Part shown: in pieces, positions 34,665-46,816 of the stretch
How positions within the stretch are numbered: the first letter of the stretch is position 1
How the letters are laid out: each line of letters starts with the position of its first letter
Notes under the pieces: generated by a model
Databases searched by the model: none
The model's input: the letters and a program-made list of their open reading frames with translations, nothing else
What the model was told of the DNA's origin: nothing
Position numbers and translations under genes: made by a program
Assembly: GCF_000412695.1 (NCBI RefSeq)
Contig: NC_021499.1
Coordinates: 4,712,001 to 4,776,000 of the forward strand
DNA length: 64,000 bases
Source of the DNA: Pseudomonas resinovorans NBRC 106553
GTDB lineage: Bacteria; Pseudomonadota; Gammaproteobacteria; Pseudomonadales; Pseudomonadaceae
Reading direction: 5' to 3'

Positions 34665-34724
34665 TTGGCTATGCCGTGCAGGAGCTACCCGGACCACCGG
34701 GTTCGCGGCACCACAATTTGCAAT

Positions 34725-34822
34725 GGCTGGCTAGGGTTCCGGTTCGCGCAAGCGAACGACTGGTCCGAGAGCTGGCGACCTCCAGCGAGGTTACACGGCG
34801 GGACAAAAGCCCGGGAGAACGC
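34725..34822 (+). ncRNA. Guanidine-I (ykkC) riboswitch
   Basis: The conserved ykkC aptamer segments occur in order: CTAGGGTTCCGG, a variable hairpin (TTCGCG CAA GCGAA), ACTGGTCCGAGAG, a second variable hairpin (CTGG...CCAG), and ACACGGCGGGACAAAAGCCCGGGAGA. This class binds free guanidinium. The downstream gene starts about 60 bp later; the ribosome site lies in a tiny GGAG-GTT-CTCC fold, so translational control is possible, and I see no clear intrinsic terminator. Its presence identifies the following 'urea' genes as guanidine genes. Confidence 0.95.
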
Positions 34823-39234: not shown

Positions 39235-39337
39235 AAACCTCTCCCAGGGGGAGAGGGAGCAAATGCGCTCCAGCCACGGACGACCGTGGTGCAGATGACT
39301 AGCGGCGGGACGGCCCGCCACCCATGAGGACGTCCTC

Positions 39338-42300
39338 ATGTTCGAGAAGCTCCTGATCGCCAACCGCGGCGCCATCGCCTGCCGCATCCTGCGTACCCTG
39401 CGCGCCCTCGATGTGCAGGGCGTGGCCGTGTATTCCGAGGCCGACGCCGCCAGCCTGCACCTGCAGCAGGCGGACCAGGCCATCAGCCTGGGCGATGGCC
39501 CGGCCGCCAGCACCTACCTGGTGGTGGAGAAGATCCTCGCGGCGGCCCGCGAATCGGGTGCCCAGGCCATCCACCCCGGCTACGGCTTCCTCTCCGAAAA
39601 CGCCGCCTTCGCCGAAGCCTGCGAAGCGGCCGGCATCGCCTTCGTCGGCCCAACGCCGGAGCAGCTGCGGGTGTTCGGCCTGAAGCACACCGCCCGTGCC
39701 CTGGCCAAGGCCAACGGCGTGCCCATGCTCCAAGGCACCGACCTGCTGGAAAACCTGGAAGCCGCCCTGGCCGCCGGTGAGCAGGTGGGTTACCCGGTGA
39801 TGCTGAAAAGCACCGCCGGCGGGGGCGGTATCGGCATGCGCGTGTGCCGCTCGGCGGTTGAGCTCAGCGATGCCTTCGAGGCGGTGAAGCGGCTGGGACA
39901 GAACAATTTCAGCGACTCCGGCGTGTTCATCGAGAAGTACATCCAGCGTGCCCGCCACCTGGAGGTACAGGTATTCGGCGACGGCCAAGGCGAGGTGCTC
40001 GCCCTGGGTGTGCGCGACTGCTCGGTGCAACGGCGCAACCAGAAGGTGCTGGAAGAAACCCCGGCGCCCAACCTGCCGGAAGGCATGGCCGAGGAGCTTT
40101 GCGCCGCCGCCATCAAGCTGGCCTGCGCGGTGGGCTACCGCAGCGCCGGCACCGTGGAATTCGTCTACGACAGCGAGGCGCAGCGCTTCTACTTCCTCGA
40201 AGTGAACACCCGCCTGCAGGTGGAGCACGGCGTCACCGAACAGGTCTGGGGTGTCGACCTGGTGCGCTGGATGATCGAACTGGCTGCCGGCACCCTGGCG
40301 CCCCTGGCCGAGTTGGCGGCGGGCCTGCAACCCTCCGGCCACGCCATCCAGGCGCGGCTCTACGCCGAAGACCCGGGCCGCGACTTCCAGCCCTGCCCCG
40401 GCCTGCTCACCGCCGTCGCCTTCCCCGCCGCCGATGGCAAGCACCTGCGCATCGATACCTGGGTGGAAGCCGGCTGCGAGATCCCGCCCTACTTCGACCC
40501 GATGATCGCCAAGCTGATCGCCTGGGCGCCGAGCCGCACTGAAGCCAGTGCCGCCCTCGACCAGGCGCTGGCCGATTCGCAGCTGTATGGCGTGGAAAGC
40601 AACCGCGACTACCTGCGCCAGATCATCCATGACGCGCCATTCGCCAGCGGCTCGCCCTGGACCCGCTGCCTGGAAGGCCTGGCCTATCGCGCCAGCACCT
40701 TCGAAGTGCTGGGCGCCGGCACCCAGACCACCGTGCAGGACTATCCCGGCCGCCTCGGCTACTGGGCCGTAGGTGTGCCGCCGTCCGGCCCCATGGACAG
40801 CCGCGCCCTGCGCCTGGGCAACCGCCTGCTGGGCAACGCCGAGGGCGATGCCGGGTTGGAAATCACCATGAGCGGCCCGACCCTGCGCTTCAACACCGAT
40901 GCCGTGGTAGCCGTCACCGGCGCGCCCATTCCGCTCCTCCTCGACGGCCAGCCGCAGCCCATGGACACCGCGCTCTTCGTGCCGGCCGGCGCCACCCTGG
41001 TCCTGGGCACCATCAATGGTGCCGGGGCGCGCAGCTACCTGTGCCTGCGTGGCGGCCTGCAACTGCCGGAGTACCTGGGCAGCAAGAGCACCTTCACCCT
41101 CGGTCAGTTCGGCGGCCACGGCGGCCGCGCGCTGCGCGCCGGCGACGTACTGCACCTGGCTCCCCTGGGCGATCACAGCGCAGGCCAGGCACTGGAACCG
41201 GACCTGCGCACCGAGCTGCCGGCGGTACGCACCCTGCGGGTGATCTACGGCCCCCACGGCGCCCCGGAGTACTTCACCCCGGCCTACATCGAGACCTTCT
41301 TCGCCACCGCCTGGGAAGTGCACTTCAACTCCAGCCGCACCGGCGTGCGCCTGATCGGTCCCAAGCCGGAGTGGGTGCGCGAGAGTGGCGGCGAAGCCGG
41401 CCTGCACCCCTCGAACATCCACGACAACCCCTACGCCATAGGCGCGGTGGACTTCACCGGCGACATGCCGGTGATCCTCGGCCCGGACGGCCCCAGCCTG
41501 GGTGGCTTCGTCTGCCCGGTGACCATAATCGAAGCCGACCTCTGGCAGCTCGGCCAGCTCAAGGCCGGCGACAAGGTGCGCTTCGTGCCGGTGAGCATCG
41601 CGCGCGCCCGCGAACTGGCGCAGGGCGTAGCCCGGATGCAATCCGGGGACGACGAGGCGGAGATTCCCCGGATTGCATCCGGGCTACAGAGCCCCGTGGT
41701 ACTCGACCTCGGCGAAGGCGACAAACGCCTGGTCGCCCGCCTCTCCGGCGACACCCACCTGCTGCTGGAGATCGGCGCGCCGGAGCTGGACCTGGTGCTG
41801 CGCTTCCGCGCCCACGCGCTGATGCAGGCGCTGGAGGCACGGGCGCTCGCCGGGGTGATCGACCTGACCCCGGGCATCCGCTCGCTGCAGGTCCACTACC
41901 AGCCGGAAACCCTGGCGCTGGAGGCGCTGTTGGAAATCGTCGCCAGCCTCTGGGACGGCGTGTGCGCCGCCGGCGACCTCCGGGTGCCCTCGCGCATCGT
42001 CCACCTGCCGCTGTCCTGGGACGACCCGGCCTGCCAGCTGGCCATCGAGAAATACATGACCACGGTGCGCAAGGACGCGCCCTGGTGCCCGAGCAACCTG
42101 GAGTTCATCCGCCGCATCAACGACCTGCCCAACCTCGACGAAGTGCAGCGCACGGTGTTCGACGCCAGCTACCTGGTGATGGGCCTGGGCGACGTCTACC
42201 TTGGCGCGCCGGTGGCCACGCCGCTGGACCCGCGCCACCGCCTGGTGACCACCAAGTACAACCCGGCGCGCACCTGGACGGCCGAGAACTCGGTGGGCAT

Positions 42301-42937
42301 CGGCGGCGCCTACATGTGCGTGTACGGCATGGAAGGCCCCGGCGGCTACCAGTTCGTCGGCCGCACCCTGCAGATGTGGAACCGCTACCGCGAGGTGGCC
42401 GCCTTCGACGGGAAACCCTGGCTGCTGCGCTTCTTCGACCAGATCCGCTTCTACCCGGTCTCCGCCTCCGAACTCACGCGGATCCGCCGCGACTTCCCCC
42501 TGGGCCGCTACCCACTGCGCATCGAAGACAGCGAACTGTGCCTGGCCGACTACCAGGACTTCCTCGCCCGCGAAGCCGAGGGCATCGACGCCTTCCGTGC
42601 CCAGCAGCAGGCCGCCTTCAACGCCGAGCGCGAGCGCTGGATCGCCAGCGGCCAGGCCCACTTCGAGAGCGACGAGGGCGTTGCCGACCTGGGTGAAGAC
42701 GCCCCCCTGGGCGCGGGCCAGCACGCGGTGGAAAGCCATATCGCCGGCAATCTCTGGCAGGTGCAGGTGGAGGAAGGTGCCAGCGTGAAAGCCGGCGATA
42801 TCCTGGTGATCCTCGAATCCATGAAGATGGAAATCCCCCTCACCGCCCCGCGTGACGGCGTGGTGCGCGAGGTGCGGGTGCAACCCGGCTCGCCGGTGCG
42901 CGCCGGGCAACGGGTAGTGGTGATGGAAGAGGCCTGA
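39338..42937 (+). CDS. Biotin-dependent guanidine carboxylase (annotated as urea carboxylase)
   Basis: ATP- and biotin-dependent carboxylation of guanidine (urea as the poorer substrate in riboswitch-linked relatives). 1199 aa: biotin carboxylase domain about 1-450 (ANRGAIACRI, STAGGGGIGMR, EVNTRLQVEHGVTE), KipA/AHS2-like half about 456-755 (TTVQDYPGRLGYW, PPSGPMDSRALRLGN), KipI/AHS1-like half about 785-1060, linker, and biotin carrier domain with the biotinylated lysine K1163 in ESMKME. GAGGACG lies before the ATG. No allophanate hydrolase is fused or adjacent. Residues ~763-783 are encoded by a REPIN. The guanidine assignment rests on the riboswitch and the deiminase genes; active-site residues were not compared. 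Confidence 0.9.
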   Translation: MFEKLLIANRGAIACRILRTLRALDVQGVAVYSEADAASLHLQQADQAISLGDGPAASTYLVVEKILAAARESGAQAIHPGYGFLSENAAFAEACEAAGIAFVGPTPEQLRVFGLKHTARALAKANGVPMLQGTDLLENLEAALAAGEQVGYPVMLKSTAGGGGIGMRVCRSAVELSDAFEAVKRLGQNNFSDSGVFIEKYIQRARHLEVQVFGDGQGEVLALGVRDCSVQRRNQKVLEETPAPNLPEGMAEELCAAAIKLACAVGYRSAGTVEFVYDSEAQRFYFLEVNTRLQVEHGVTEQVWGVDLVRWMIELAAGTLAPLAELAAGLQPSGHAIQARLYAEDPGRDFQPCPGLLTAVAFPAADGKHLRIDTWVEAGCEIPPYFDPMIAKLIAWAPSRTEASAALDQALADSQLYGVESNRDYLRQIIHDAPFASGSPWTRCLEGLAYRASTFEVLGAGTQTTVQDYPGRLGYWAVGVPPSGPMDSRALRLGNRLLGNAEGDAGLEITMSGPTLRFNTDAVVAVTGAPIPLLLDGQPQPMDTALFVPAGATLVLGTINGAGARSYLCLRGGLQLPEYLGSKSTFTLGQFGGHGGRALRAGDVLHLAPLGDHSAGQALEPDLRTELPAVRTLRVIYGPHGAPEYFTPAYIETFFATAWEVHFNSSRTGVRLIGPKPEWVRESGGEAGLHPSNIHDNPYAIGAVDFTGDMPVILGPDGPSLGGFVCPVTIIEADLWQLGQLKAGDKVRFVPVSIARARELAQGVARMQSGDDEAEIPRIASGLQSPVVLDLGEGDKRLVARLSGDTHLLLEIGAPELDLVLRFRAHALMQALEARALAGVIDLTPGIRSLQVHYQPETLALEALLEIVASLWDGVCAAGDLRVPSRIVHLPLSWDDPACQLAIEKYMTTVRKDAPWCPSNLEFIRRINDLPNLDEVQRTVFDASYLVMGLGDVYLGAPVATPLDPRHRLVTTKYNPARTWTAENSVGIGGAYMCVYGMEGPGGYQFVGRTLQMWNRYREVAAFDGKPWLLRFFDQIRFYPVSASELTRIRRDFPLGRYPLRIEDSELCLADYQDFLAREAEGIDAFRAQQQAAFNAERERWIASGQAHFESDEGVADLGEDAPLGAGQHAVESHIAGNLWQVQVEEGASVKAGDILVILESMKMEIPLTAPRDGVVREVRVQPGSPVRAGQRVVVMEEA
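41627..41687. repeat. REPIN-like repeat, GTAGCCCGG family, inside the carboxylase reading frame
   Basis: Perfect inverted repeat: arms 41627-41648 and 41666-41687 (22 bp each) around a 17-base loop. Each arm is itself GTAG plus a hairpin (CCCGGAT-GCA-ATCCGGG). The same unit is intergenic at 46755-46816. Translated in frame as roughly VARMQSGDDEAEIPRIASGL, between the KipA-like and KipI-like domains. Confidence 0.9.
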
Positions 42938-42958: not shown

Positions 42959-43054
42959 GTAGGGGCGATTTCAATCGCCAAGCAGGCCGCAGGTCTGCCC
43001 TGACTGCTTGCAAGGGGCAGCTGCGCTGCCCTTGGCGAATGAATTCGCCCCTAC
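42959..43054. repeat. REPIN-like repeat, GTAGG(G/A)GCGATT family
   Basis: GTAGGGGCGATTTCAATCGCC on the left, GGCGAATGAATTCGCCCCTAC on the right, with an inner GGGCAGCTGCGCTGCCC hairpin. Related to 46637-46736. Lies between the carboxylase stop and the DUF2157 gene; nothing else is seen in that 191-bp gap. Confidence 0.8.
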
Positions 43055-46636: not shown

Positions 46637-46736
46637 GTAGGAGCGATTTCAATCGCGAAGGGCAGCCACGCTGCCCGTTGCCTCAAGCCGTGCAGGACTG
46701 CCCTTCGGCCCGTTTCGCGAATGAATTCGCTCCTAC
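46637..46736. repeat. REPIN-like repeat, GTAGG(G/A)GCGATT family
   Basis: GTAGGAGCGATTTCAATCGCG on the left and CGCGAATGAATTCGCTCCTAC on the right, with an inner GGGCAGCC...GGACTGCCC stem. Related to 42959-43054. Together with 46755-46816 it fills the gap between two convergent genes. Confidence 0.8.
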
Positions 46737-46754: not shown

Positions 46755-46816
46755 GTAGCCCGGATGCAATCCGGGACCAATCCGACACCCGCCTCCCCGG
46801 ATTTCATCCGGGCTAC
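46755..46816. repeat. REPIN-like repeat, GTAGCCCGG family
   Basis: Two inward-facing GTAG hairpins, GTAGCCCGGATGCAATCCGG from the left and GTAGCCCGGATGAAATCCGG from the right on the opposite strand. Intergenic counterpart of the copy inside the carboxylase gene. Confidence 0.85.

Follow-up and report, generated by a model that had tools for sequence, protein, structure and literature searches.

Palindromic repeats read as protein in the interdomain linker of Pseudomonas urea/guanidine carboxylases: a probable tolerant capture site

The linker between the two carboxyltransferase halves of the urea/guanidine carboxylase of Pseudomonas is probably a tolerant capture site, which would have been filled in frame, and repeatedly, by whichever resident palindromic repeats abound in the genome. 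Repeats of several families are read as protein at this one place of the enzyme, they are restricted to the linker within the gene, the family found there matches the repeats that abound in the genome, and the state of the linker changes repeatedly on the gene tree. In the window, that is the whole stretch of 64,000 nucleotides of Pseudomonas resinovorans DNA that was analysed, the linker holds a REPIN of a family here named A.

The linker REPIN and its host gene

The features of the window on which the analysis rests are the following.

39272-39318, plus strand: Guanidine-II riboswitch, directly 5' of the carboxylase gene (Rfam RF01068, 42.2 bits)
39338-42937, plus strand: urea/guanidine carboxylase gene, 1199 aa, host of the REPIN (open reading frame and TIGR02712)
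40769-41590, plus strand: codons of CT_A_B, the KipA-like half, residues 478-751 (PF02626, 316 bits)
41627-41687, plus strand: translated family-A REPIN, 61 bp, residues 764-783, VARMQSGDDEAEIPRIASGL (repeat search and translation)
41627-41649, plus strand: left REP arm, GTAG-headed (inverted-repeat search)
41650-41664, plus strand: REPIN loop, 15 nt (inverted-repeat search)
41665-41687, minus strand: right REP arm, inverted, with its GTAG head at 41687 (inverted-repeat search)
41738-42397, plus strand: codons of CT_C_D, the KipI-like half, residues 801-1020 (PF02682, 142 bits)
46755-46816, no strand assigned: intergenic family-A REPIN, 62 bp (half-element matches)

The two arms of the linker REPIN measure 23 nt each, are 100% complementary and stand 15 nt apart, and the element shows the GT(A/G)G head and the palindromic core that mark a REP. 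A sequence-only reading of this DNA had described a perfect GTAG-headed inverted repeat with arms of 22 nt; the perfection stands and the arm length is corrected. With up to three mismatches, the half-element was found four times in the window (at 41627, 41667, 46755 and 46796; mean in shuffled sequence, 0.00), and the last two matches bear out the intergenic copy which the same reading had placed at 46755-46816. The carboxylase frame 39338-42937 stays open across 41627-41687, and the repeat is thus read through without a stop, as had been stated. The residues that it encodes lie between the end of CT_A_B (residue 751) and the start of CT_C_D (residue 801), which agrees with its earlier placement in the linker between the KipA-like and KipI-like halves. 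In an AlphaFold model, residues 766-782 fall below pLDDT 50. Because this model is partial (the carboxyltransferase part only, 642 aa) and of moderate quality (mean pLDDT 71.6, with 122 residues under 50), the low values lend only mild support to an unstructured stretch.

The 1199-aa protein scored 1854 bits against the urea carboxylase profile TIGR02712 (cut-off 1303.85) and is a full-length member of this family. It is accompanied by UAAP1/UAAP2 genes, and a Guanidine-I riboswitch is located at 34720-34819 of the window; together with the Guanidine-II riboswitch, this context points to guanidine as the putative substrate. Two guanidine riboswitch classes (I and II) share one locus here, the second directly before the carboxylase. 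Just 5' of the Guanidine-II riboswitch lies a CCTCTCCC..GGGAGAGG-like palindrome (39238-39258), which has three mismatches and is at chance level for the window. A second inverted repeat family, of the TAGGGGCGAATTCATTCGC type, occurs directly after the stop codon of the carboxylase (42960-43053) and again downstream (46638-46735), and a repeat of this type is also found in frame within the linker of one related locus (L038; loci are numbered L and genomes G).

Family A proved to be a true multi-copy REPIN. With up to two mismatches its half-element GTAGCCCGGATGNAATCCGGG was matched 163 times in the 6.48-Mb genome (86 + 77), versus 0 for the reversed pattern, and such a high copy number is a mark of REPs and REPINs. 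Among 60 fetched regions of the own genome we found 40 inverted doublets of 58-62 bp. Genomic context was assessed at 62 of 66 places from among the matches listed (of the 163), and a copy was called mid-gene by the GC content at third codon positions on both sides of an open frame, annotation being unused. At least two exact half-elements were present at 24 of these 62 places. Third-position GC of at least 0.85 on both sides of the open frame was reached by the carboxylase copy only (1/62), while six other places passed 0.70, in ORFs of 114-241 aa. Extragenic placement is a further mark of REPs and REPINs, from which the carboxylase copy departs in being translated. Two Y1-transposase matches were detected in the own genome. 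Inverted family-A REPs border the Y1_Tnp gene at G000:C1:5620647-5620979 on either side, an arrangement typical of a RAYT and its REPs, and judged by its position this gene is likely the cognate, putative mobiliser of family A. A second RAYT-like gene (L171, G000:C1:418226-418552) lies near a TAGGGGCGAATTCATTCGC-type repeat and lacks family A in its vicinity, and may therefore be a putative mobiliser of the TAGGGGCGAATTCATTCGC-type family.

Palindromic families in the linkers of related carboxylases

We compared 98 Pseudomonas carboxylase loci, which comprise the best 80 of at least 573 relatives and 18 loci from own-genus genomes and form the closest part of a larger set. L008 and L094 are identical in sequence and both were kept, hence 97 loci are distinct; L100 was removed because it coincides with L098, and the 98 do not include the 55% paralog L099 or the partial homologues L101-L110. 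Carboxylases beyond Pseudomonas were taken from Gammaproteobacteria and from PDB sequences. A class-wide search of 229 genomes (E at most 1e-250) matched 20, one of which is the own genome. A protein search found 7,116 sequences, of which 120 were listed and 11 fetched, none of them among the 98 rows.

At least one element of four palindromic families (A, B, D and E) is present in 79 of the 98 linkers, or in 73 at stricter thresholds; the translated repeat of the window is thus not the lone unusual case for which it had been taken. Families A (GTAGCCCGGATG..), B (GTRGGAGCNNGCTTGCNNGCGA) and E (GGAGSGGNTTNANCCGCGA) are GTRG-headed REPINs. Family D (CCTCTCCC N6 GGGAGAGG) is a palindrome without the GT(A/G)G head and is hence named a palindromic repeat, not a REP. 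Families B and E have a similar layout and are possibly related as sisters; between A, B/E and D the distinction is clear, and their sequences differ throughout. The pattern of family E had a background of up to 3 matches per strand in the reversed control. A lax pattern for a family F overlapped family E, and F was dropped as a separate family; only L038 has a clear F-type element. Examples of the translated elements are VARMQSG..RIASGLQ, CRSELARE..FASKLAPT, LRGSGFSRD..IADKSAPT and SPLPLAGEGPGER..PSPQPSPINGRG. Several linkers hold multiple elements: E followed by A in L007 and L013, B plus D in L078 and L098, and D-A-B in L012. In L013, L025, L032, L034, L041, L059 and L072, some REPIN arms are lengthened by an additional short, frame-preserving insert (GYGAPLAPT, for example, versus KLAPT elsewhere), as if the elements had been extended from within.

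A native linker type, L-EAVAVNWxPIPLE-PPVIL, is found in 13 loci, whose native status was assigned by eye, and similar linkers are found in other Gammaproteobacteria (L173, for example). The sequence-only reading had proposed that the enzyme gained about 20 residues. However, measured between the same anchors, the own linker spans 63 residues, and so do native ones, that of L010 for example; this equal length indicates that the native segment was replaced rather than that 20 residues were added. Linkers reach 128 residues (L078). That all homologues share the linker sequence, which would have left the resemblance to chance, is not the case, as the orthologous linkers differ in sequence.

Within the gene, the elements occur in the linker only. 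Across 28,482 linker bases, full elements were matched 160 times on both strands (A 16, B 88, E 24 and D 32, the D palindrome being counted twice), versus 0 matches in the other 329,040 coding bases of the 98 genes, where one chance 9-mer occurred. Apart from this 9-mer, all matches outside the linker lie upstream of the start codon. An in-frame palindrome inside a conserved protein, as found here, is a mark of coding palindromes. The linkers hold 73 element clusters and the flanks of the loci (756,186 bases) hold 70, none of which was called mid-gene by codon usage (threshold, score above 0), although this zero is imperfect because the same threshold missed 3 of the 73 linker clusters. The earlier statement that REP-type elements otherwise lie mostly outside genes is in line with both counts (0 of 70 flank clusters and 1 of 62 own-genome places mid-gene). 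Outside the 98 loci, 20 of 21 linkers were readable (19 of the 20 class loci L173-L192, and that of the paralog L099); their best inverted-repeat score was 10, and no linker repeat was found among these 20. As far as tested, the phenomenon is confined to this linker in Pseudomonas genomes, where other genes were covered only by the flanks of the 98 loci and the 62 own-genome places. The linker of L190 (G144) is short, with 55 residues between the anchors versus 82-91 in the others read, and the homologues L186 and L191, from two other genomes, carry in-frame stops (one TAA; one TGA plus one TAG).

Origin of the linker elements

The families were counted in 56 genomes and their abundance was tested on 53 of these, without G031 (L038), G035 (L064) and G037 (L079), whose linkers are neither native nor of families A, B, D or E. 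In 31 of 40 genomes, the family in the linker outnumbers each of the other three (permutation mean 11.3, largest value 23 in 10,000 permutations, which ignore relatedness); in 9 of the 40 it is not the most abundant. Genomes with native linkers hold a median of 34 elements (n=13), versus 256.5 in those with element-bearing linkers (n=40; p 8e-6). One native-linker genome holds 244 elements, and G035 and G037 are rich in B or E, yet their linkers are without an element. L096 (G009) has a family-B REPIN in its linker, but its genome has only 4 family-B matches, some of them probably the arms of this REPIN, which may be the relic of a family that is otherwise gone.

Repeated change is also seen on a tree of the 98 proteins from which the linker was left out, where native loci are scattered among element-bearing ones. 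The fewest changes for presence are 8 for A, 18 for B, 17 for D and 11 for E, and at least 40 changes are required by a multi-state label that treats each mixed state as separate; the tree was made by a quick method and 25 of its 94 inner branches have support under 80, so that 40 and the other change counts may be too high. Since a native segment cannot be regained by chance, losses were counted as irreversible on the rooted tree, which gave 14 separate losses of the native segment; collapsing the weak forks lowers this to 10. This implies that the native linker would have been replaced separately 10-14 times. Outside the linker, L009 (family B) and L017 (family D) are 0.964 identical, and L006 (family B) and L018 (native) are 0.955 identical. 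The linker ends of L001 and L003, which are 2 and 3 mismatches away from the family-A right arm (over 13 bases in L001), look like a decayed older layer.

We propose that an in-frame insert is tolerated in this linker because it lies between two domains that are recognised separately and its low model confidence is that expected of an unstructured stretch. Palindromes resident in the genome, namely the GTRG-headed REPINs of families A, B and E and the CCTCTCCC palindrome of family D, would insert in frame and displace about 13 native codons. Captured elements would decay, and would then be overlaid or replaced by the family that is abundant at the time. Selection would retain the reading frame and an unstructured spacer, and insertions elsewhere in the gene would be purged. 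All seven measurable family-A REPINs in linkers are 61 bp long, versus 2 of 40 in the fetched regions of the own genome, and this constant length fits selection for frame. We infer that RAYT transposition is the inserting agent, that insertion is close to neutral and that the hotspot stems from tolerance, not from target choice. It is tempting to go further and to regard the linker as a self-renewing landing pad, in which each captured palindrome would be the target for the next mobilised one, so that a stacked in-frame archive of the active families of each Pseudomonas lineage would build up and the domain boundary would evolve mainly by mobile-repeat capture. We hold this wider reading to be possible, though doubtful.

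A true target preference, by which the linker DNA or older REPs in it would be the preferred landing site and the hotspot would be mutational and not only tolerant, is the rival that survives best, and we consider it unlikely. The left arms keep one codon phase in each family (A 7/7, B 44/44, E 16/16). This uniformity goes beyond that expected of free and independent insertion; it may stem from a common boundary or junction, from descent shared by part of the elements or from target preference, and it makes it less certain that all events were free and independent. In many loci, elements of different families start just after a CTN leucine codon (L005, L006, L014, L019 and L024 among them), which would also suit a preferred site; the own linker of the window is among the loci without such a start. 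The tandem states of L007, L013 and L012 and the relic of a family-A right arm at the end of L001 point in the same direction. However, no fixed 3-mer precedes the head of the family-A copies in the fetched own-genome regions, and a target motif before the REP head was rejected for this reason. Moreover, family D uses the same place without being GTRG-headed, and selection on the frame and on a needed leucine could alone give the same picture.

The repeat might also be retained for its hairpin, which would delay ribosomes between the carboxyltransferase halves, or for some benefit of the encoded peptide. A very stable fold of the single strand at 41607-41707 (-65.2 kcal/mol, z -8.0) would be consistent with such a role, as would the position of the strongest inverted repeat of the gene, which falls within the linker at 65 of the 79 element-bearing loci. 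But it is there in none of the 13 native loci and is missing from the linker in 14 of the 79 element-bearing ones, the 20 linkers readable outside the set score 10 or less, and the loop peptides of the linker elements differ freely. As native and decayed linkers do without a hairpin, it is no general need; a translational role is possible but not favoured, and we regard this explanation as improbable.

Slightly less probable still is a single ancestral insertion followed by divergence and by gene conversion from repeat to repeat. The uniform codon phase would be expected from it, and so would the constant 61 bp of the family-A linker REPINs, which is also expected from selection for frame. Against it stand families A, B/E and D, whose sequences differ throughout, and the 13 scattered native linkers, which would need the 10-14 losses counted on the rooted tree. 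That an old linker resembles a repeat by chance was rejected and has a negligible probability, given the shuffle mean of 0.00, the reversed control of 0 and the same finding in several families and many genomes.

Relation to known intragenic repeats

Intragenic REPs are already known. Genes for known proteins were reported to contain in-frame GTAG/CGTC REPs, more than half of which form dimers or groups that contribute 20-30 residues, and flexible linkers were suggested as a neutral home for REPs (Di Nocera et al., 2013; PMC3733652). In recB, two Xanthomonas species were found to carry different REPs at nearly the same position (Di Nocera et al., 2013). The carboxylase linker shares with these cases GTAG-headed palindromic repeats that are read in frame; it differs in that one site of one enzyme is occupied by four families in 79 of 98 loci, with repeated change. 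Neither urea nor carboxylase appears in the main text of that study, whose list of intragenic REPs (additional file 3) lay outside the search. Rickettsia palindromic elements are the classic coding palindromes, in frame in conserved proteins (PMC10969869, PMC2229807), and an element-bearing Rickettsia guanylate kinase was reported to be translated and active (PMC2229807). A mobile palindrome in frame in a conserved protein is common to both systems, a likeness of working for which no kinship is claimed; as described in these reports, one element class is spread over many genes in Rickettsia, whereas here several classes meet on one site.

In Pseudomonas, REPINs were described as inverted REP doublets linked to RAYTs, with GTGGGAG-type heads in P. 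fluorescens, and as extragenic, with 14 of 1,067 occurrences of the commonest 16-mers overlapping genes in SBW25 (Bertels & Rainey, 2011; PMC3116915). The linker copies share the layout of those REPINs but are translated. REPs were likewise reported to lie almost exclusively between genes (Nunvar et al., 2013; PMC3686654). Among the matches listed, no paper joined urea/guanidine carboxylase with REP elements, supplementary tables being outside this search, and as far as found, no multi-family hotspot like the present one has been reported.

Current opinion thus places REPs almost entirely outside genes, apart from scattered intragenic cases of unjudged effect. The carboxylase linker offers one site with native, occupied, stacked and decayed states in dozens of related species, and through these natural before-and-after states it allows a direct test of whether mobile repeats can turn into protein. 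To our knowledge, few natural targets of RAYT insertion are known, and the native linkers form an empty-site set for its study. The linker can be read as a natural record of mobile DNA becoming protein. Some caution is needed in comparing these carboxylases, as the length and sequence of their linkers mirror the repeat load, not the function of the enzyme.

Solved structures of urea carboxylase/urea amidolyase (PDB 3va7, 5i8i) provide a whole-length homologue, with 1072 bits over residues 2-1195, and 3va7 is the closest solved one. At the corresponding place, the K. lactis protein has a linker sequence of its own.
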